Translations under genes and position numbers: made by a program
DNA from: a virus
Direction: 5' to 3' (one strand)
Length of the DNA: 62,773 bases
IMG/VR virus record: IMGVR_UViG_3300025168_000084
Coordinates: 1 to 62,773 of that record
In this document: in pieces, positions 1 to 62,773 of the stretch
How the letters are laid out: each line of letters starts with the position of its first letter
How positions within the stretch are numbered: position 1 is the first letter of the stretch
The notes under the pieces: generated by a model
Seen by the model: only the letters and a program-made list of their open reading frames with translations
Told to the model about the DNA's origin: nothing
Databases searched by the model: none

Positions 1-79
1 TGTAGCCCTTGAGGAACTAGATGCTTCAGATACAGCAGTCAATTCAATGACTATTCGTATTAGAGTAATCGGTTTCTAG
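1..79 (+). CDS. Small head protein, C-terminal fragment (duplicate of the end of 62308-62700)
   Basis: This is the last 25 codons and the stop of the gene that is complete at 62308-62700. It is cut only because the circular molecule was opened inside the gene, so it is not a pseudogene. The encoded residues are identical in both copies. Confidence 0.9.
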   Translation, partial: VALEELDASDTAVNSMTIRIRVIGF

Positions 80-104
80 ACTAAGATCTAGTCATATTTT
101 TTTT
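76..104 (+). terminator. Probable U-tract terminator after the small head protein
   Basis: An imperfect inverted repeat built on CTAGA and GATCTAG follows the stop codon and is followed by eight Ts at 97-104. Archaeal termination relies mainly on such T tracts. The next promoter begins about 10 bases later. Confidence 0.5.
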
Positions 105-114
105 CTTAATAATG

Positions 115-123
115 TTTATATAT
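115..123 (+). promoter_or_regulatory. TATA box for the 144 gene
   Basis: TTTATATAT is centred about 25 bases before the ATG at 144. This matches archaeal promoters that give leaderless transcripts, and no Shine-Dalgarno sequence is present. Confidence 0.65.
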
Positions 124-143
124 GACCGATAATATCAATTATT

Positions 144-416
144 ATGACTTATAGCAATCATAATGTAAAAGATGTATCTTCTGACGGTGCAGTAAAAGCA
201 GGTCATGGTGTAATAGTTTCAGTACATGTTGTAAAAGCAGGTGCTAGTGGAGACAAAGTAGTATTCCATAATGGTGATGCTAACTCAGATCCAGCAGAGT
301 TTACAGTATATGGTGAAGGAATTCAAAACATACAGGACATTATGAGAAGATTTGAAGACGGTATATTTGCAGAAGTTACAGGTACAACTGCAAAATATTT
401 AGTAGTATTCAAATAG
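144..416 (+). CDS. Putative small virion protein
   Basis: This 90-residue, Gly/Val-rich, mostly beta protein is not recognised by family. It follows the small head protein across the circle junction and precedes the connector gene, so a head decoration or connector-associated role is plausible. It has its own TATA box and starts at the first ATG about 25 bases downstream. No catalytic motif is visible. Small beta-sandwich proteins of this size are common in this position of marine phage genomes. Function is inferred from position only. Confidence 0.6.
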   Translation: MTYSNHNVKDVSSDGAVKAGHGVIVSVHVVKAGASGDKVVFHNGDANSDPAEFTVYGEGIQNIQDIMRRFEDGIFAEVTGTTAKYLVVFK

Positions 417-37141: not shown

Positions 37142-38869
37142 TCATACAAATGAACTCATTACCATTAATTTGAACTGCTTAATAACCTTTTCTGAAGCAA
37201 TATTCATGTTTTCAACATTCATAATATTCTTAGATTTGAACAGTTTTCTAACACCATTGTATTTATACGAATATTTATCTGATACTACTATACAGTTTAG
37301 ATTATTAGTTACCTTTCTTGCTTTAAGCATTGACTTTGTACATGTCTTCATATAATTAGGGAATGACATATGATACCCACCAACATAATAGTTAGGCATA
37401 CCGTCAGTTATCATAATCATCATCTTCTTGCTGCCTTTCATCTTCTTTAACATTTGAGCAGAGTACTCTAATCCCATATGGGTAGGTGTCACACTGTACA
37501 TATTATGACATGATATTTGATTCAAATCATTTTTACTGTTAATTTCTGTCATACCTATAATACCTTTACCGTCAGAACCCCATACATTAGCACGAATCTC
37601 AACATTGTCTACACCTTTAAGTGATTCATATAGTGTTGCAACAAGGTTGCGAGCAGTATTCATTCTGTCTCCACGCATTGAACTAGATCCATCTATTGAT
37701 ATAACCAATGCAATACCGTTAGTAATCCTCTTGTTTACTCTACAATTATTCAAGTTATTACCACGAATTAGATTTTCAACATAAGTATCAACGTCTACTT
37801 CCTCACCCTCATTATCAATAAAGTCCTTCTTTTGCATTTTCATTGTCTTAAATATCTTAGACAATCCCTTGGCAATTTTCATATTAGGTTTTACTTTACT
37901 AGATTCTCTTTTAACCAATCTTACACGTTTAGGTAATGCCTGTTGAGGAACTTCACCTCTTAACGAGTCAAATATATCATTTACAACTCCCTCACCCTCT
38001 TGCTTACCTATATCCACAATTTCTTCTTTCGTTTCATCATTATTATCATCTGGATTCAATAATTCTTCAGGAACTTCGAGATCGGTTTCTCCACTCGATT
38101 CGAGGTTGTTTTCCTGAAAGTCAGTGTTTTCCCGACTCATTTCACTTCTTTGTTCCATTCTTTTATCTCTACCCTGTTCTCTCTCTAACGTGTCAGGTTC
38201 AGCAATTAAATCATCAATGCTTGGATCTAATATTTTCTTTCTGTCACTAAGATACTTGTCCAAGTATGGTTTTAGTGTAACCATTACTCTCAATCCACCA
38301 AATCTATCAGTAAGCAATACGTCTTCTAACGCCTTTGCATAAACATCATAGTTTTCTGTATCATTGATAATATCATCACCACGCTGGAATCTTATTGTCA
38401 ACAGTATGTCTATTGGATTCTGATTTCTTACATCCTTACCCATCAACTTACCAAGTTTTTTGGTTGTCTTGTCAAATCTACTTGCATGTTTAAGATACAT
38501 CTTACCCATCTGTGACTCTATGCGTTGGTCTTCTATTACATTAAACACATTGAAAAAGAACTTGTAATCCTCATCTTTAAGACCCCAATTATCTCTGAAT
38601 AATTTCTTGGTTGCATCAAACGGAGATTGAAACAATACATGAGCAAGTTCGTGTATGATACCTACAAACTTCTCAATACCCTTGACGTTAGGCTTTGCAG
38701 AAAATATTCTAAATATATTTTTATTATCCTTTAACCCATGATATTGAACCATATTAGTTTGACCAGCATGAACTATTGATATTTTTGCATTTCTGACAAC
38801 CTCTACGACATTGGCATACTTTTCATACATGTCATTGTTACTGAGCAAGTCGGTGTTACGTTTGGTCAT
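37142..38869 (-). CDS. CobT-like VWA protein with HELAH motif
   Basis: 575 residues. HELAH at 73-77 in an N-terminal helical domain is also seen in phage CobT-like proteins. Residues about 215-300 are acidic and disordered. The VWA domain from about 385 carries the MIDAS residues DGSSS (393-397), a Thr in TPT (about 462) and TDG (about 488). With the CobS-like AAA+ ATPase at 41836-42759 it should form a MoxR/CobS-VWA pair. Such pairs remodel or metallate partners; the substrate in viruses is unknown. Confidence 0.8.
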   Translation of the reverse strand: MTKRNTDLLSNNDMYEKYANVVEVVRNAKISIVHAGQTNMVQYHGLKDNKNIFRIFSAKPNVKGIEKFVGIIHELAHVLFQSPFDATKKLFRDNWGLKDEDYKFFFNVFNVIEDQRIESQMGKMYLKHASRFDKTTKKLGKLMGKDVRNQNPIDILLTIRFQRGDDIINDTENYDVYAKALEDVLLTDRFGGLRVMVTLKPYLDKYLSDRKKILDPSIDDLIAEPDTLEREQGRDKRMEQRSEMSRENTDFQENNLESSGETDLEVPEELLNPDDNNDETKEEIVDIGKQEGEGVVNDIFDSLRGEVPQQALPKRVRLVKRESSKVKPNMKIAKGLSKIFKTMKMQKKDFIDNEGEEVDVDTYVENLIRGNNLNNCRVNKRITNGIALVISIDGSSSMRGDRMNTARNLVATLYESLKGVDNVEIRANVWGSDGKGIIGMTEINSKNDLNQISCHNMYSVTPTHMGLEYSAQMLKKMKGSKKMMIMITDGMPNYYVGGYHMSFPNYMKTCTKSMLKARKVTNNLNCIVVSDKYSYKYNGVRKLFKSKNIMNVENMNIASEKVIKQFKLMVMSSFV

Positions 38870-41835: not shown

Positions 41836-42759
41836 TTATAAACTCACATTAAACGTGTCATTAATTCTTAATCGAATCAATTCACGTTCACTAGGCTCAC
41901 TAAACTTTATCATGATAACCTCGCTAAGAGCAGTTTCCAATGGTCTAGGAATCTTATCCTGTATGCTTCTAAAGTGGTGGGTAAACTGTACAATATCCCT
42001 AATAGATAGAGCATAGTCAACGTCACCTTTCAACTTAAGGGCATAAATGTCCTGTGCAAGAGTCAAAAGTGGGTTCTTAATTGCATCTTCACCTATATCT
42101 GTCCAATCAACTACCTTCTGAATGTCCTCATTCTTTGGATAATCCCATGCACTACCGATAAATCTGCTTCTTAATGCTTCTGCCATACTGTTCACACCTA
42201 CATAAGTGACTGGATTGATAGTCCAAATGATAGACAACTTGCAACCCTTCTTGAGCTTGTATTGCTTACCGTTTGCAACTACGCTACGTCTTCCGTCACA
42301 TATAGAGTGCCACCATTGTTGAATCTCATGTTCCTGACTGTTACCCTCGTCACCATAAAGACAAGCGTGTCCAAAGTGATTGGCAATCTCTATTGCCTTA
42401 GGCAATAAACCAAGACTAAAGAATGTACCATCTCTATTGATCTCCTTACTGCCAATCAAATCAGATTTTTTAGTTCCAACACCGATAGGCTCGTTAATCA
42501 AGGCAACACCGTTCTCCTTACATATAGTATGAGTCAACAGTGTCTTACCCTGACCTTTCTCACTCTCAATAAGATACGGAAGTTTTCCTTCCATGATAGC
42601 CATAGTCAATCTGGTCTTCTCATCACCTATAGCTATATACTCATCCCATACGTCAATGTTTGACGGATCGTACTGAGTAAAATCAATAGGCAGTACAGGT
42701 ATTCCAGTTTGCATAACTAACTCAGGTTGTTCTGACATATAATTCATTTCTTCAGTCAT
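41836..42759 (-). CDS. CobS-like MoxR AAA+ ATPase
   Basis: 307 residues. Walker A ESEKGQGKT (65-73), Walker B LYGDEGN (134-140) and IWTINP as sensor 1 identify the MoxR/CobS group common in large marine phages. With the VWA protein at 37142-38869 it should form a chaperone-like complex. Despite the name, there is no reason to infer cobalamin synthesis here. Confidence 0.8.
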   Translation of the reverse strand: MTEEMNYMSEQPELVMQTGIPVLPIDFTQYDPSNIDVWDEYIAIGDEKTRLTMAIMEGKLPYLIESEKGQGKTLLTHTICKENGVALINEPIGVGTKKSDLIGSKEINRDGTFFSLGLLPKAIEIANHFGHACLYGDEGNSQEHEIQQWWHSICDGRRSVVANGKQYKLKKGCKLSIIWTINPVTYVGVNSMAEALRSRFIGSAWDYPKNEDIQKVVDWTDIGEDAIKNPLLTLAQDIYALKLKGDVDYALSIRDIVQFTHHFRSIQDKIPRPLETALSEVIMIKFSEPSERELIRLRINDTFNVSL

Positions 42760-46051: not shown

Positions 46052-46312
46052 TCATTGTGCTTCTAACCTCGATTTGATAGATGAGCCACCCTCATTTTTA
46101 TTTTCTTTCATATCATAAAACTTTCTACTGTCACCGTCATTATACTGTATGAAGGCAGAAAATGTGCCATCATGTATCTTTTTATGACATTCATAGTGAA
46201 CATAGGCTATTCTTTCAGGGAAATAACATACATGGTGTCTAATCAACTTACCGTCTAAAGGAGAGCCAAAGCACACTATACAAGTGTCCTTTTTGTTTAT
46301 GAACTCAGTCAA
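46052..46312 (-). CDS. HNH-like zinc protein
   Basis: 86 residues. CIVC, then RHHVCYFPERIAYVHYECH and KKIH give the treble-clef and HH/H ligands of HNH nucleases. It directly follows the amidoligase and overlaps it by 4 bases. Nuclease activity is plausible but unproven. Confidence 0.6.
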   Translation of the reverse strand: MTEFINKKDTCIVCFGSPLDGKLIRHHVCYFPERIAYVHYECHKKIHDGTFSAFIQYNDGDSRKFYDMKENKNEGGSSIKSRLEAQ

Positions 46313-47325
46313 GATTGTAATAACTCCTCAGGTGTTAATTCATAACCATTAACAGTAACATAATCATTTGTCATTGTTATTTCACCACTCATATCAATAT
46401 CCTCAGGTTCTTCATTCATGTATTCCATGACCATAGTGTTAGATATTCTGCCATTGAAATCAGTTTCAGGCTCTACTGTTTGATTGTCTATTGGTATTGG
46501 TTTGTTAGCCATTTTATCTAGGTATTTCTGAATGATACCCATAGATACCTCTACTGCTTTGCAATATATTTTCCAATCCTGAAACATAGGCAATACTCGT
46601 ATTTCCAATGTTCCATGTTTGTGATATTGGTAGTTTAGTGCTGAGTATCTGCAATTAGGATAGTTATCATGTCTAATGTATAACTGCTGTTCTCCTCTAT
46701 AATCAATGTTGCACATAGTATTTTCATTTGCCAATCTATCCCAAAAGTTATAGTTTCTTATGTTGGCTCTTTTACCCCATCTTTTCAACTCAAGTATAAA
46801 GTGATTAAAGAATTCTTGAGTACATAACAATTCAAATGCTTGAATGTTATCAAATGATACATGGAAATGACCACCACATGTACTGTTAAGATCCTCAGGA
46901 TAATATCTATTAACCCAATTTCTCCATGTGCCATTAATAGGCATTGGATATGATATTATTTCACCTGAAGAACCACCTTCTCTATTATAACAATGATCTC
47001 CCTCGTCATTACAACAGTAATCACAGTCGCCACATTCTCCATCACCATAACCTAATCCTTCTACTGATGAATCGTCATGCCACATATATGAACTATATAA
47101 CCAATCATCTTGGTTATCTTCATTATCAGGCATTTCACTCCATGCACCTTCTAATTCAATGCCAATTTTTACTATTTTGCATTGAGGTGTCAATAAAACA
47201 TGGGTATTTTGACAGTTTTCACAACATAAACAGAATCTATCACTATCAAATGTCATATTCATATAACATTCAGAACAATGATATTCAGTCATCCCTGTAA
47301 TTGGGTGTTTATTTAATATAGACAT
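46309..47325 (-). CDS. Glutamine-synthetase-like amidoligase with zinc-ribbon N-terminus
   Basis: 338 residues. After an N-terminal zinc ribbon (CSEC, then CLCCENC), motifs of the GS-like COOH-NH2 amidoligase family appear: KIGIELEG (Glu57/59), DDSSVEG (about 84-90), GEIISYP (Glu122), CGGHFHVSF (His153/155), CRYSALNYQ (Arg226) and TLEIRVLP (Glu241, Arg243). A Cys-rich insert (six Cys, about 98-112) is unusual. Family members use ATP to join an amine to a carboxylate, often with a GATase supplying ammonia. Target here unknown. Confidence 0.8.
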   Translation of the reverse strand: MSILNKHPITGMTEYHCSECYMNMTFDSDRFCLCCENCQNTHVLLTPQCKIVKIGIELEGAWSEMPDNEDNQDDWLYSSYMWHDDSSVEGLGYGDGECGDCDYCCNDEGDHCYNREGGSSGEIISYPMPINGTWRNWVNRYYPEDLNSTCGGHFHVSFDNIQAFELLCTQEFFNHFILELKRWGKRANIRNYNFWDRLANENTMCNIDYRGEQQLYIRHDNYPNCRYSALNYQYHKHGTLEIRVLPMFQDWKIYCKAVEVSMGIIQKYLDKMANKPIPIDNQTVEPETDFNGRISNTMVMEYMNEEPEDIDMSGEITMTNDYVTVNGYELTPEELLQS

Positions 47326-47327
47326 TA

Positions 47328-48119
47328 TTATAATGGCTCCTTGTCATATCTTTTTGATTTTATTTCACAACCGTCAAGATAATCTAACTCGTCAGCACAG
47401 TAGAATGTTGAACCATCAACAAATTGTTTTTGATAGTTATCCTCATAATCATCAAGGGACTGAACTTTAGTATCGGATTTATCTGATTTCTTTGCTTTAT
47501 ATTCAAAATTACCACCATAATCTCCCCAATATACAGGCTCGAAATTATCATTACTGCAAGATATTTTATCTACGGTTGTCCAACCGTCACCAAATCTATC
47601 AATACCGTCAGGTGACAATACAATGACTTTTTCTCCTGTAAATTCAAGGAAATTAATGCCTTTATGTGAAGCACACCAAGCCATAATACTACTGTCACTC
47701 ATATCACCGTCAGGAATACGAATATTAGGACTGTTAAATGCTAGTTTTATAGCAAAATCGTCAAACTCATTCCATATACCATTATGGAACATTACAGATT
47801 GTCTTGTACTTCCTCTGGTTCTATTTGATAATGCAGTTCCATCTTTGTTCATTCCTAATGGGAATGGGTGGCATAACATATCATTATTTTCACCATGAGT
47901 GCCTATTCTGAAATGTACGATAAGGTTATTTTTCTTGGTCAATTTATGTTTCTTGACATATTTAGCTACATACTCAGCAGTAACATGAAGACCTTTTTCC
48001 CAATGTACTAGACCATCTCTGGTATATGCAAATCCACCACCATCACGATTAGTTTTTTCTGCTTTTATGAGCATATCTAATTTAGGAATATGCTCATCAC
48101 ATTGTAATATAACACACAT
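47328..48119 (-). CDS. Class II glutamine amidotransferase (Ntn hydrolase)
   Basis: 263 residues. The N-terminal MCVI gives Cys2 as nucleophile once Met is removed. NRDGGGFAY, HFRIGTHG (Arg71), CHPFPL and FHNGIWNEF match the YafJ-like class II GATase core. It should release ammonia from glutamine. It is two bases from the amidoligase, so channelled amidation or gamma-glutamyl transfer is the natural joint role. An acidic C-terminal extension (about 205-263) is not part of the core. Confidence 0.8.
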   Translation of the reverse strand: MCVILQCDEHIPKLDMLIKAEKTNRDGGGFAYTRDGLVHWEKGLHVTAEYVAKYVKKHKLTKKNNLIVHFRIGTHGENNDMLCHPFPLGMNKDGTALSNRTRGSTRQSVMFHNGIWNEFDDFAIKLAFNSPNIRIPDGDMSDSSIMAWCASHKGINFLEFTGEKVIVLSPDGIDRFGDGWTTVDKISCSNDNFEPVYWGDYGGNFEYKAKKSDKSDTKVQSLDDYEDNYQKQFVDGSTFYCADELDYLDGCEIKSKRYDKEPL

Positions 48120-48658
48120 TATCTAATACGCTCCGATTTTATGGTAATCTTACCTTTGGATTGTTTTGGTGTCATGTATTTGTTGTACATTTTTCCTAAC
48201 ATTTGCATGGTTTTATCACAATACAAATCAAATTTCTTACCGTCAACAGGTGAGCCATTAATACATATTTTCATACCTTTGGATATACCTTTAGCCCTAA
48301 CCCATGATATGTTTGGAACATCTATTTCCTCAGTTACACTAGAACTAAAGAACATTTCATTACTCTCACCCCAATATTTTATTGATGTGAATATATCATG
48401 TTGATCTGGTCTAGAATATCCATAACAAGAAATTTCCTTAAATCCTGTACGAATAGGATGCCATTTTTCATTTCCAGCATAATCAGGATTAATTGATTGA
48501 TTTTTGAAATATTGTTCAAATACGTCAGATTTAGCCTTCACAATAAATAATCCATTTTCTCTCAAGAATGTTACTGTCATTACAGTTTTCTTGGTAACAG
48601 GATCTACTACTGTTCTACTAATACCTTGCACATTTGCATTAGACATTTTTTGATTCAT
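48119..48658 (-). CDS. Unknown third gene of the amidoligase operon
   Basis: 179 residues from the ATG ending at 48658, set by TAATG overlap; a TTG at 48676 is also open. Mixed beta/alpha, with WHPIRTGFKEISCYGYSRPD and a basic C-terminus (KQSKGKITIKSERIR). It abuts the GATase gene by one base. It could be the modified substrate or a carrier; no motif confirms this. Confidence 0.5.
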   Translation of the reverse strand: MNQKMSNANVQGISRTVVDPVTKKTVMTVTFLRENGLFIVKAKSDVFEQYFKNQSINPDYAGNEKWHPIRTGFKEISCYGYSRPDQHDIFTSIKYWGESNEMFFSSSVTEEIDVPNISWVRAKGISKGMKICINGSPVDGKKFDLYCDKTMQMLGKMYNKYMTPKQSKGKITIKSERIR

Positions 48659-48810
48659 TATAATAAACTCTCCCAATATTCATTCATAGCTTCATCTTGA
48701 CCACAATTAGAACATAAATTAGTCATATTGTCTTTTCTAGATAGAGCTGGGAAATCTTCATCATAACTTTTAGTCATGTTACAGATACCACATGTATAAT
48801 AATCAGTCAT
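48658..48810 (-). CDS. Small zinc ribbon
   Basis: A 50-residue ORF: YTCGICNMTKSYDED, then LCSNCGQDEA. Shares layout with other zinc ribbons of this operon. TAATG overlaps on both sides. Confidence 0.55.
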   Translation of the reverse strand: MTDYYTCGICNMTKSYDEDFPALSRKDNMTNLCSNCGQDEAMNEYWESLL

Positions 48811-49078: not shown

Positions 49079-49171
49079 CTATTGATTCACCTTTTCTCCT
49101 TTGATAGTATGAATGGATATTCCGTTCATCATAATATGTGAGGATGCTACACAATCAACCCACGTTAACAT
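49079..49171 (-). CDS. Micro-ORF with KVNQ C-terminus
   Basis: A 30-residue ORF ending HTIKGEKVNQ, like the 44178-44300 ORF. The 17-base DNA segment ATCTATTGATTCACCTT occurs at both 3' ends (44175 and 49077 regions), consistent with duplication. Confidence 0.4.
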   Translation of the reverse strand: MLTWVDCVASSHIMMNGISIHTIKGEKVNQ

Positions 49172-49656
49172 TTTATATTCTCCTTGTTTATCCATGCTGG
49201 TATATCTCTTTTTGTCCATTTTAGTATATCCTGTTTAGCAACATTGTAATAATTTCTATATGAAGCAACAATATCATTGTCAATCTTACATTCATCAGGC
49301 ATAGCTCTAGCAAATCTGGTCATTTTAACATCAGGTAAATCTGGGAAAGGTAATGATTTAATCACATCAAATGATTTATGATTGACATTTTTATCATATC
49401 TGTATCTGTATTCGTCATTCAATGCACTAGTCATGTTATATAGCCACTCATAGTTCTCAATACTATCACGCAACCATTTATTGCATGGGTGATTAACATG
49501 AGTTGATTTGTAAGGTATTTTATAATCATAACCACCTATAACATGATGAACAGTACACATCATTTGTGCGTGTTCTAGTATCATTTTGACAACATGCTTA
49601 TCAACATGCAATTTGGCACATTCTACATAATCATTGTCTAACACAAATATATTCAT
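49165..49656 (-). CDS. Conserved phage protein of unknown function
   Basis: 163 residues. MNIFVLDNDYVECAKLHVDK, HVVKMILEHAQMMC, HVNHPCNKWLRDS, RFARAMPDE and SYRNYYNVAKQDI form a pattern I recognise from many marine phages, usually unannotated. A helical DNA-repair-like (pyrimidine-dimer glycosylase-like) fold has been suggested for such proteins, but I cannot confirm it. Probably acts on nucleic acid. Confidence 0.55.
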   Translation of the reverse strand: MNIFVLDNDYVECAKLHVDKHVVKMILEHAQMMCTVHHVIGGYDYKIPYKSTHVNHPCNKWLRDSIENYEWLYNMTSALNDEYRYRYDKNVNHKSFDVIKSLPFPDLPDVKMTRFARAMPDECKIDNDIVASYRNYYNVAKQDILKWTKRDIPAWINKENIKC

Positions 49657-53399: not shown

Positions 53400-53566
53400 T
53401 AATTCGTAATTTTATCAACGGTCTAAAAAAATCATTCAGTGGAAAGGACTATCTTAGGGAAATCAACCAATGTGCCAAATGTGGAAGACCTAGCTTCTTT
53501 GACTCTTGTTTGAAATGCGAAGTCGACGATGCATATCGTGGATGGAATTCTAAGAACTTACGTTAA
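53396..53566 (+). CDS. Zinc ribbon frame lacking a standard start
   Basis: An open frame of about 56 codons with QCAKCGRPSFFDSCLKCE, a convincing zinc ribbon, but no ATG, GTG or TTG before it. It begins around ATA/ATT codons at the previous gene's stop, in the -1 frame relative to that gene. Non-canonical initiation, frameshifting or a sequence error are the options. Confidence 0.4.
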   Translation: MIIRNFINGLKKSFSGKDYLREINQCAKCGRPSFFDSCLKCEVDDAYRGWNSKNLR

Positions 53567-53864
53567 AGTGTCTCTCTATATACACCAAACTCATGACCTT
53601 GCTCTTTAGAGTAACCTCAATTTTCTTGTAATAGTGTGACTCATACCTGTCCATTTTTTCAATGTCACTGTCACTTACCTTGAATATCTCACCCTTTACA
53701 AGTTCACCCTCTGACTTTATGATAGTAGGGTATCTGCTAAGTACGCTATGAGTGTCTATCGTGTAGCCTTCAAGTATGTCCTTGACCCCCTCAATCTCAT
53801 GGCATAGCACGTTTGTTCTGAGAGTTTTGTTTAGCAGCGAGCCATAGACAAAGATATTTTTCAT
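53550..53864 (-). CDS. Gamma-glutamyl cyclotransferase-like protein
   Basis: 104 residues. IFVYGSLLN at the N-terminus (substrate loop YGSL), a Glu-containing SEGELVKGEIFKV and MDRYESHYYKKIEV match the GGCT/AIG2-like family. These enzymes cleave gamma-glutamyl amines, releasing 5-oxoproline, and could reverse what an amidoligase makes. It is separated from the amidoligase operon by the control region. TATA on the minus strand at 53885-53894. Confidence 0.75.
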   Translation of the reverse strand: MKNIFVYGSLLNKTLRTNVLCHEIEGVKDILEGYTIDTHSVLSRYPTIIKSEGELVKGEIFKVSDSDIEKMDRYESHYYKKIEVTLKSKVMSLVYIERHFNVSS

Positions 53865-62307: not shown

Positions 62308-62700
62308 ATGGCAATAACTATAGCACAAAATGCCGACCATAAAAGTCTTACAGGAAAGACACTATCCATTCAAAGCGAACTTACATCAAAGTTGAAATCC
62401 ACCATTGTTGACGTAACATACGGTGGTTCTGACACATACGCTACTAATGGTAATACTGTCGATCTATCCCTTGGTGGTAGAATTAGTACTGTTATTGGAG
62501 CAGAAATACTTCATTGTAACAAAGGACTACTTTTACAATATGCACCAGCAGCAGCAGGTGCAGCAGCAACAGGGAAAATTAAAGCCTTTGGTCATACTCC
62601 AACAAGCTCTACAGCAACAGTTGTAGCCCTTGAGGAATTAGATGCATCAGATACAGCAGTCAATTCAATGACTATTCGTATTAGAGTAATCGGTTTCTAG
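62308..62700 (+). CDS. Small head/decoration protein
   Basis: 130 residues, Ala/Thr/Gly-rich and beta-rich (TLSIQSELTSKLKSTIVDVT, YAPAAAGAAATG). Position two genes after the capsid and strong promoter suggest a head decoration or minor structural protein. Its end recurs at 1-79 because of the circular overlap. No catalytic motif. Confidence 0.65.
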   Translation: MAITIAQNADHKSLTGKTLSIQSELTSKLKSTIVDVTYGGSDTYATNGNTVDLSLGGRISTVIGAEILHCNKGLLLQYAPAAAGAAATGKIKAFGHTPTSSTATVVALEELDASDTAVNSMTIRIRVIGF

Positions 62701-62773
62701 ACTAAGATCTAGTCATATTTTTTTTCTTAATAATGTTTATATATGACCGATAATATCAATTATTATGACTTAT
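62622..62773. repeat. Terminal direct repeat, right copy
   Basis: Matches 1-152 with two synonymous mismatches. It includes the first nine bases of the next gene (ATG at 62765, equal to 144). Joining the copies gives a circle of about 62,621 bases. Confidence 0.95.

Follow-up and report, generated by a model that had tools for sequence, protein, structure and literature searches.

A tailed virus of archaea, represented by the 62,773-base IMG/VR virus record IMGVR_UViG_3300025168_000084 (hereafter the window, i.e., the whole stretch of DNA that was analysed), encodes a class II glutamine amidotransferase (GATase), a glutamine-synthetase-like amidoligase, a gamma-glutamyl cyclotransferase (GGCT) and a partner protein, X, which together appear to be a reduced variant of a cassette of bacterial podoviruses. 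This enzyme set was earlier known only from bacterial viruses and is explained there as cell-wall modification. Since the variant described here sits in viruses whose hosts very probably lack peptidoglycan, that explanation should not apply to it, and the presence of the cassette core together with X in such viruses provides a natural test against the cell-wall reading. A preliminary description of the same DNA had reported these genes and had suggested that, in an archaeon, they modify a protein rather than a wall, with the cyclotransferase removing or recycling the modification; the observation is confirmed by the present analysis and the interpretation is partly supported.

Gene layout and predicted enzymes

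The genes in question, including two small candidate members of the module, are arranged as follows (coordinates refer to the window).

48658..48810, minus strand: 50-aa zinc-finger-like ORF, start/stop-coupled upstream of X, 90% conserved in the sister virus; candidate module member
48119..48658, minus strand: X, the 179-aa partner and first gene of the trio, with its ATG at 48658
47328..48119, minus strand: predicted class II glutamine amidotransferase (GATase) of the Ntn type, with Cys2, HFRIGTHG, CHPF, HNG and Asp142
46309..47325, minus strand: predicted glutamine-synthetase-like COOH-NH2 ligase (amidoligase), with ExEG, GxHxH and GTxExR motifs
46052..46312, minus strand: 86-aa ORF with no function assigned, overlapping the amidoligase stop, 91% conserved in the sister virus; candidate module member
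53550..53864, minus strand: predicted gamma-glutamyl / gamma-glutamylamine cyclotransferase (GGCT; GGACT, AIG2-like), with YGSL and DRYES

On the minus strand the trio runs in the order X-GATase-amidoligase and its genes are translationally abutting: X begins within the stop codon of the small upstream ORF (TAATG), the final A of its own TAA stop doubles as the first base of the GATase ATG (again TAATG), and two bases separate the GATase stop from the amidoligase start. The GGCT gene lies 5 kb from the trio. All four ORFs of the preliminary description, among them the adjacent GATase and amidoligase, were thus found in place and with their motifs intact. The trio and the GGCT are under purifying selection, which is weakest for X (dN/dS against the sister virus, 84-90% identical: amidoligase 0.32, GATase 0.30, X 0.65, GGCT 0.12). 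The trio is adjoined at 49165-49656 by a phrog_624 / pyrimidine-dimer-glycosylase-like gene, for which no similar ORF was found at the matching place in the sister virus.

Taken alone, the window proteins are difficult to place, as searches with single proteins matched only the sister virus and a tblastn search of INPHARED with the amidoligase and X gave no match. Because the GATase showed only a sub-threshold Pfam match (PF13230, E 0.006) and the amidoligase no Pfam match (the PF12224 gathering threshold was missed) and no PHROG match either, relatives were gathered, and profiles built without the window's own virus family then reached both window proteins, the GATase at 5e-58 and the amidoligase at 6e-52. 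In the GATase, the motifs MCVIL with Cys2, HFRIGTHG, CHPF, FHNG and SDSS are intact, and the class II signature is present with its N-terminal Cys nucleophile, the Arg of FRxxTxG, HNG and a downstream Asp; C2, N24, H69, R71, G76, H112, N113, G114 and D142 are invariant in 10 GATases. Profile matches in the PDB are class II amidophosphoribosyltransferases (E 0.007). An independent DNA pattern for the GATase motif returned 119 viral and 23 genomic stretches. Proteins with the GATase motif also occur on DPANN contigs without an adjoining amidoligase (L173 and L176, Micrarchaeota JAOAJI010000027; L169, Diapherotrites).

The amidoligase has retained IELEG, GGHFHVS and GTLEIRVLP and hence the active-site motifs of glutamine-synthetase-like enzymes (acidic, GxHxH, Arg). 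E57, E59, D85, S87, G151, H153, H155, T239, E241 and R243 are invariant in 51 amidoligases, with E122 and R226 nearly so, and 15 of these 51 sequences match PF12224 (best 7e-20). A search for the amidoligase motif as a DNA pattern gave a single hit in the window and none in 100 shuffles, and a pattern for RYxxxN...GTxExR led to 37 viral stretches, several with a neighbouring GATase. The preliminary description had made its proposal depend on a glutamine-synthetase-like fold, and such a fold is indeed suggested by an AlphaFold model built from the 51-sequence alignment (core pLDDT >90): in a Foldseek comparison with the PDB, ranks 1-21 are taken up entirely by glutamine synthetases and YbdK-type gamma-glutamyl ligases, so that the argument for the fold rests on the consistency of matches that are individually weak (best E 8e-3, TM 0.2-0.3). 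A profile-to-PDB search with the amidoligase gave no usable match. The protein also contains Cys-rich stretches, one N-terminal and one internal (CGDCDYCC). At the place of the latter, the amidoligases of L018, L024 and L026 carry very long Cys-rich inserts with zinc-ribbon-like CDC repeats, and the Cys-rich insert is possibly a metal-binding insert in the ligase.

We also considered whether the window enzyme is a free-standing phage amidoligase of the PF12224 type, i.e., one without a GATase, and rejected this candidate. The profile of these enzymes fails to reach the window protein, which hence belongs to the GATase-linked branch; even the relative L030 is reached only at 2e-4.

The assignment of the GGCT, likewise proposed in the preliminary description, is borne out by a match to Pfam GGACT (PF06094) at 1.5e-15, with 58 bits against a cut-off of 22.8. 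The YGSL motif and a putative general-base Glu (in DRYES) are present, and this Glu is aligned in the relatives shown.

Linkage of the genes across viruses

When stretches were selected by the GATase, an adjacent amidoligase (iterated profiles; within 700 bp, same strand) was found in 99 of 116 viral GATase stretches; here, as in the other linkage tallies, related viruses are counted repeatedly. Of the 17 GATases without such a neighbour, 13 lie within ~450 bases of an end of their stretch. The amidoligase comes first in 100 units across all loci and the GATase in 14. The pair-bearing records include many bacteriophages. One 150-kb record (L071) holds several amidoligases, two GATases and two X genes between 147 and 13697, which amounts to a tandem or multi-set cassette. 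In several members of the archaeal family a small ORF with a CPYLA motif is located downstream of the GATase (L026, 9719-10000; L030, 9904-10254; L064, 1796-2101; L154, 2943-3221).

X, described earlier simply as an uncharacterised partner of 179 residues, turns out to belong to a conserved family tied to the pair and is more than a bystander. Seeds from outside the window's virus family (L019, L022 and L040) recover the window X, seeds from the window and L030 converge on the same 35 ORFs, and a profile made without the archaeal family reaches the window X at 1e-10. Among the non-duplicate members, 24 of 26 have an amidoligase or GATase on their own strand no more than 250 bases away, in loci that had been selected for the pair. 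A scan that started from X returned three records, all with the pair, and in the set collected by the portal protein X occurs only alongside the pair. The set of X, amidoligase and GATase is also found in viruses unrelated to the window's family. In many pair-bearing archaeal viruses X homology is undetectable, and several other viruses of the archaeal family have a gene of similar size upstream of the amidoligase with no recognisable similarity to X. The LUZ24 and UFV-P2 genes at the position of X (gp17/gp22) were compared with it and rejected as homologues. Since none of its members has a Pfam or PHROG match and its alpha/beta model (pLDDT 82) has no match in the PDB or BFVD, X looks like a new protein family, absence from libraries being short of proof; the window X gave no NCBIfam or PADLOC match and a profile-to-PDB search no usable one.

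The GGCT is linked to the amidoligase-GATase pair, and the earlier grouping of this gene with the trio thereby holds. It was found in 27 of 100 pair-bearing viral records (10/50 and 17/50) and in none of 50 viral records drawn by random 15-mer (Fisher 6e-6); many of the 73 pair-bearing records in which it was not found are fragments. Within the window's virus family, comprising 46 records collected by the portal protein, a GATase is present in 12, half of which (6) also have the GGCT, compared with none of the 34 without a GATase, with some absences being unsure in fragmentary records. Four records with portals 90-94% identical (L250, L252, L254 and L255) have no trio. In L252 the region aligned with the window is interrupted between 53548 and 53885, a clean absence of the GGCT in addition to that of the trio. 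At least six changes of the pair and five of the GGCT fall on the portal tree, none of them in opposite directions, and paired contrasts provide up to four independent cases for the association and none against it, too few for significance alone. Locus L153 has a contiguous operon of X, amidoligase, GATase and GGCT.

The virus and its probable hosts

An exact 127-bp repeat links the near-start of the window (26-152) with its end (62647-62773), and the contig therefore probably wraps round as a circular assembly of a near-complete genome. Its portal and capsid proteins match only archaeal tailed viruses and are kin to those of HVTV-1/HCTV-type viruses, and its replication genes are an MCM of the archaeal-virus type and Rad51/RadA.

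Among 43 family and neighbouring records searched, six (L331-L336; records G102, G165, G094, G078, G070 and G101) encode AmoC, and all six carry the amidoligase-GATase pair. These sequences of ~190 aa, which we take to resemble archaeal AmoC, were confirmed as members of the AmoC family by PDB comparison. Downstream of some of the amoC genes comes an ORF for a secreted protein that is possibly cupredoxin-like. No amoC was found in the window itself, whose host placement rests on a portal ~70-74% identical to the portals of five of the six amoC-bearing relatives. Judged from AmoC in these six pair-bearing relatives, ammonia-oxidising Thaumarchaeota are very probably the hosts. Thaumarchaeota have an S-layer and are not known to possess peptidoglycan or pseudomurein. 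The archaeal host without peptidoglycan that the preliminary description had assumed is hence on much firmer ground, with AmoC in the relatives and a portal, capsid and MCM of archaeal type.

Possible function and relation to known systems

Class II GATases free ammonia from glutamine, glutamine-synthetase-like ligases make amides via an acyl phosphate, and GGACT-type enzymes release gamma-glutamyl groups as 5-oxoproline. Going by this family knowledge, the GATase would hydrolyse glutamine and pass the ammonia to the amidoligase, in which ATP would activate a carboxylate as acyl phosphate for conversion into an amide. X would be made in step with the pair and might most likely serve as a scaffold or as a substrate-bringing subunit, and the GGCT could act downstream by releasing gamma-glutamyl groups as 5-oxoproline, thereby trimming or recycling the product. 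Because the archaeal hosts are not known to have a wall of the bacterial kind, the set would have to act on something else, most likely on a host surface protein (S-layer, glycoprotein or receptor) or a virion protein, and the virus could benefit from superinfection exclusion or from hiding from the host. The cassette most likely amidates (or gamma-glutamylates) a target that we infer to be proteinaceous. The specific combination of a glutamine-dependent amide-forming enzyme, X as its partner, a downstream GGCT and a protein target on the surface or the virion is the reading we tentatively favour, at somewhat less than an even chance.

An ammonia-delivering GATase would yield a primary amide, and the need for a gamma-glutamyl-amine cyclotransferase is then not obvious. 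Owing to this tension, weight is kept by a second, doubtful explanation, according to which the ligase joins the gamma-carboxylate of glutamate to an amine, such as a lysine side chain, a polyamine or some other small amine. In this scheme hydrolysis of gamma-glutamyl groups or acyl donation would be the task of the GATase-like protein, and removal of the group as 5-oxoproline that of the GGACT-type enzyme, resulting in a write-and-erase pair. By its match the GGCT belongs to the GGACT family, which is known to act on gamma-glutamylamines; its gains and losses follow those of the trio, and the structural matches of the amidoligase include the gamma-glutamyl-cysteine ligase YbdK. Further, the RIO-1-type enzyme has been termed a gamma-glutamyl amidoligase (PMC5498523). 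However, gamma-glutamylation does not account for a complete class II glutaminase as the partner with the tightest linkage, and the 73 of 100 pair-bearing records, many of them fragments, in which no GGCT was found also speak against it.

Quite unlikely, from our point of view, is a role in small-molecule nitrogen metabolism, in which auxiliary metabolic genes would serve to release ammonia from glutamine or to make an amide metabolite, perhaps feeding ammonia oxidation together with the amoC of the relatives. Six pair-bearing relatives do have amoC, and amidoligase and GATase have been counted among auxiliary metabolic genes in work on OM43 phages (PMC10580990), but ammonia release needs no ligase, the window has the trio without amoC, the set of X, amidoligase and GATase occurs in unrelated viruses and the pair in many bacteriophages.

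A very small chance is left for counter-defence or nucleic-acid modification, i.e., an amide or amino-acid group being placed on viral DNA or RNA, or a host defence molecule being inactivated. The genes are accessory with patchy gain and loss, as is common for counter-defence, and phages use amidotransferase-like enzymes in 7-deazaguanine modification; yet a non-exhaustive look at the annotated ORFs revealed no base-hypermodification enzyme, and no PADLOC profile for anti-phage defence was matched. Lastly, modification of pseudomurein or another archaeal wall peptide, as proposed for cell-wall modification by phiEco32-/RIO-1-like phages, would account for the shared enzyme classes but is highly improbable given the thaumarchaeal hosts indicated by AmoC and the lack of two further cassette enzymes in 13 of 13 archaeal-family records (see below), and with hosts that are very probably ammonia-oxidising Thaumarchaeota, peptidoglycan itself cannot plausibly be the target in this virus.

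To return to amide formation on a protein, one could go further and propose that viruses of ammonia oxidisers carry a reversible protein modification, in which X, as a new family, recruits the target, an amide or gamma-glutamyl mark is set by the GATase and amidoligase together and the GGCT takes this mark off again, and that the widely repeated peptidoglycan explanation is false, or falls short, for the phage cassette as a whole; taken together, we consider this rather unlikely.

Among archaeal viruses, the window resembles Marthavirus and Druskaviridae in its RadA, CobS-like AAA and VWA genes as reported there (PMC7678222, PMC8651126), and the CobT/CobS-type pair of a VWA protein and a CobS-like AAA ATPase (37142-38869 and 41836-42759) has its counterpart in both. 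Thaumarchaeal tailed viruses with RadA and CobS are known (PMC7678222), as are those with amoC (Ahlgren et al., as cited in PMC8651126), and with the latter, viruses of marine Thaumarchaeota, the window's relatives share the amoC gene. Amidoligases are unmentioned in the literature found on archaeal tailed viruses, in which the sole GATase II noted is that of the haloviruses phiCh1 and ChaoS9 (PMC8651126). Mycobacterium phages of the Marvin type and OM43 phages have an adjacent Amidoligase_2 (PF12224) and class II GATase with the same motifs (PMC10580990), but their GATases are 28% identical to that of the window, whose amidoligase lies below PF12224 detection.

The closest comparison is with the podoviruses RIO-1, PSA-HP1, LUZ24, tf, UFV-P2 and phiEco32 and their 'peptidoglycan modification cassette' (PMC5498523, PMC3890496), which consists of an amidoligase, a second (PF14395) ligase, a GATase II, an ATP-grasp enzyme and a GGCT (gene lists in PMC3890496) and has been described as a peptidoglycan modification preventing superinfection (PMC5498523). 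The idea is attributed to Iyer et al., as cited in these papers (PMC5498523, PMC3890496), and in the published cassette descriptions found no substrate is demonstrated. The window contains the core of this cassette, namely amidoligase, GATase II and GGCT, and the enzymes of RIO-1, LUZ24 and UFV-P2 are homologous to those described here, being matched by the present profiles at 8e-9 to 5e-7 (amidoligases), 3e-10 to 7e-6 (GATases) and 5e-10 to 2e-7 (GGCTs). In contrast to the podovirus cassette, the PF14395 ligase and the RimK-type ATP-grasp enzyme were each found in 0 of 13 archaeal records (the window and 12 others), whereas the same search detected each of them in 5 of 6 bacteriophage-type records. 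The window further differs in being an archaeal virus with the order X-GATase-amidoligase, in the host, which for the podovirus cassette bears peptidoglycan and here, judging by AmoC in six relatives and the archaeal-type portal, capsid and MCM, should not, and in X, of which no homologue was found in RIO-1, LUZ24 or UFV-P2. X together with the PF14395 ligase occurs in the fuller cassettes of L053, L061, L093 and L122.

Overall, the finding goes beyond a stray auxiliary gene, as it calls into question the long-standing view of a widespread phage cassette as peptidoglycan modification and introduces the partner family X, a third protein to be co-expressed by anyone expressing the pair. The presence of the cassette in archaeal viruses narrows the hunt for its target to proteins or metabolites common to bacteria and archaea, and cultivable Nitrosopumilus-type archaea represent a system in which the question could be put.
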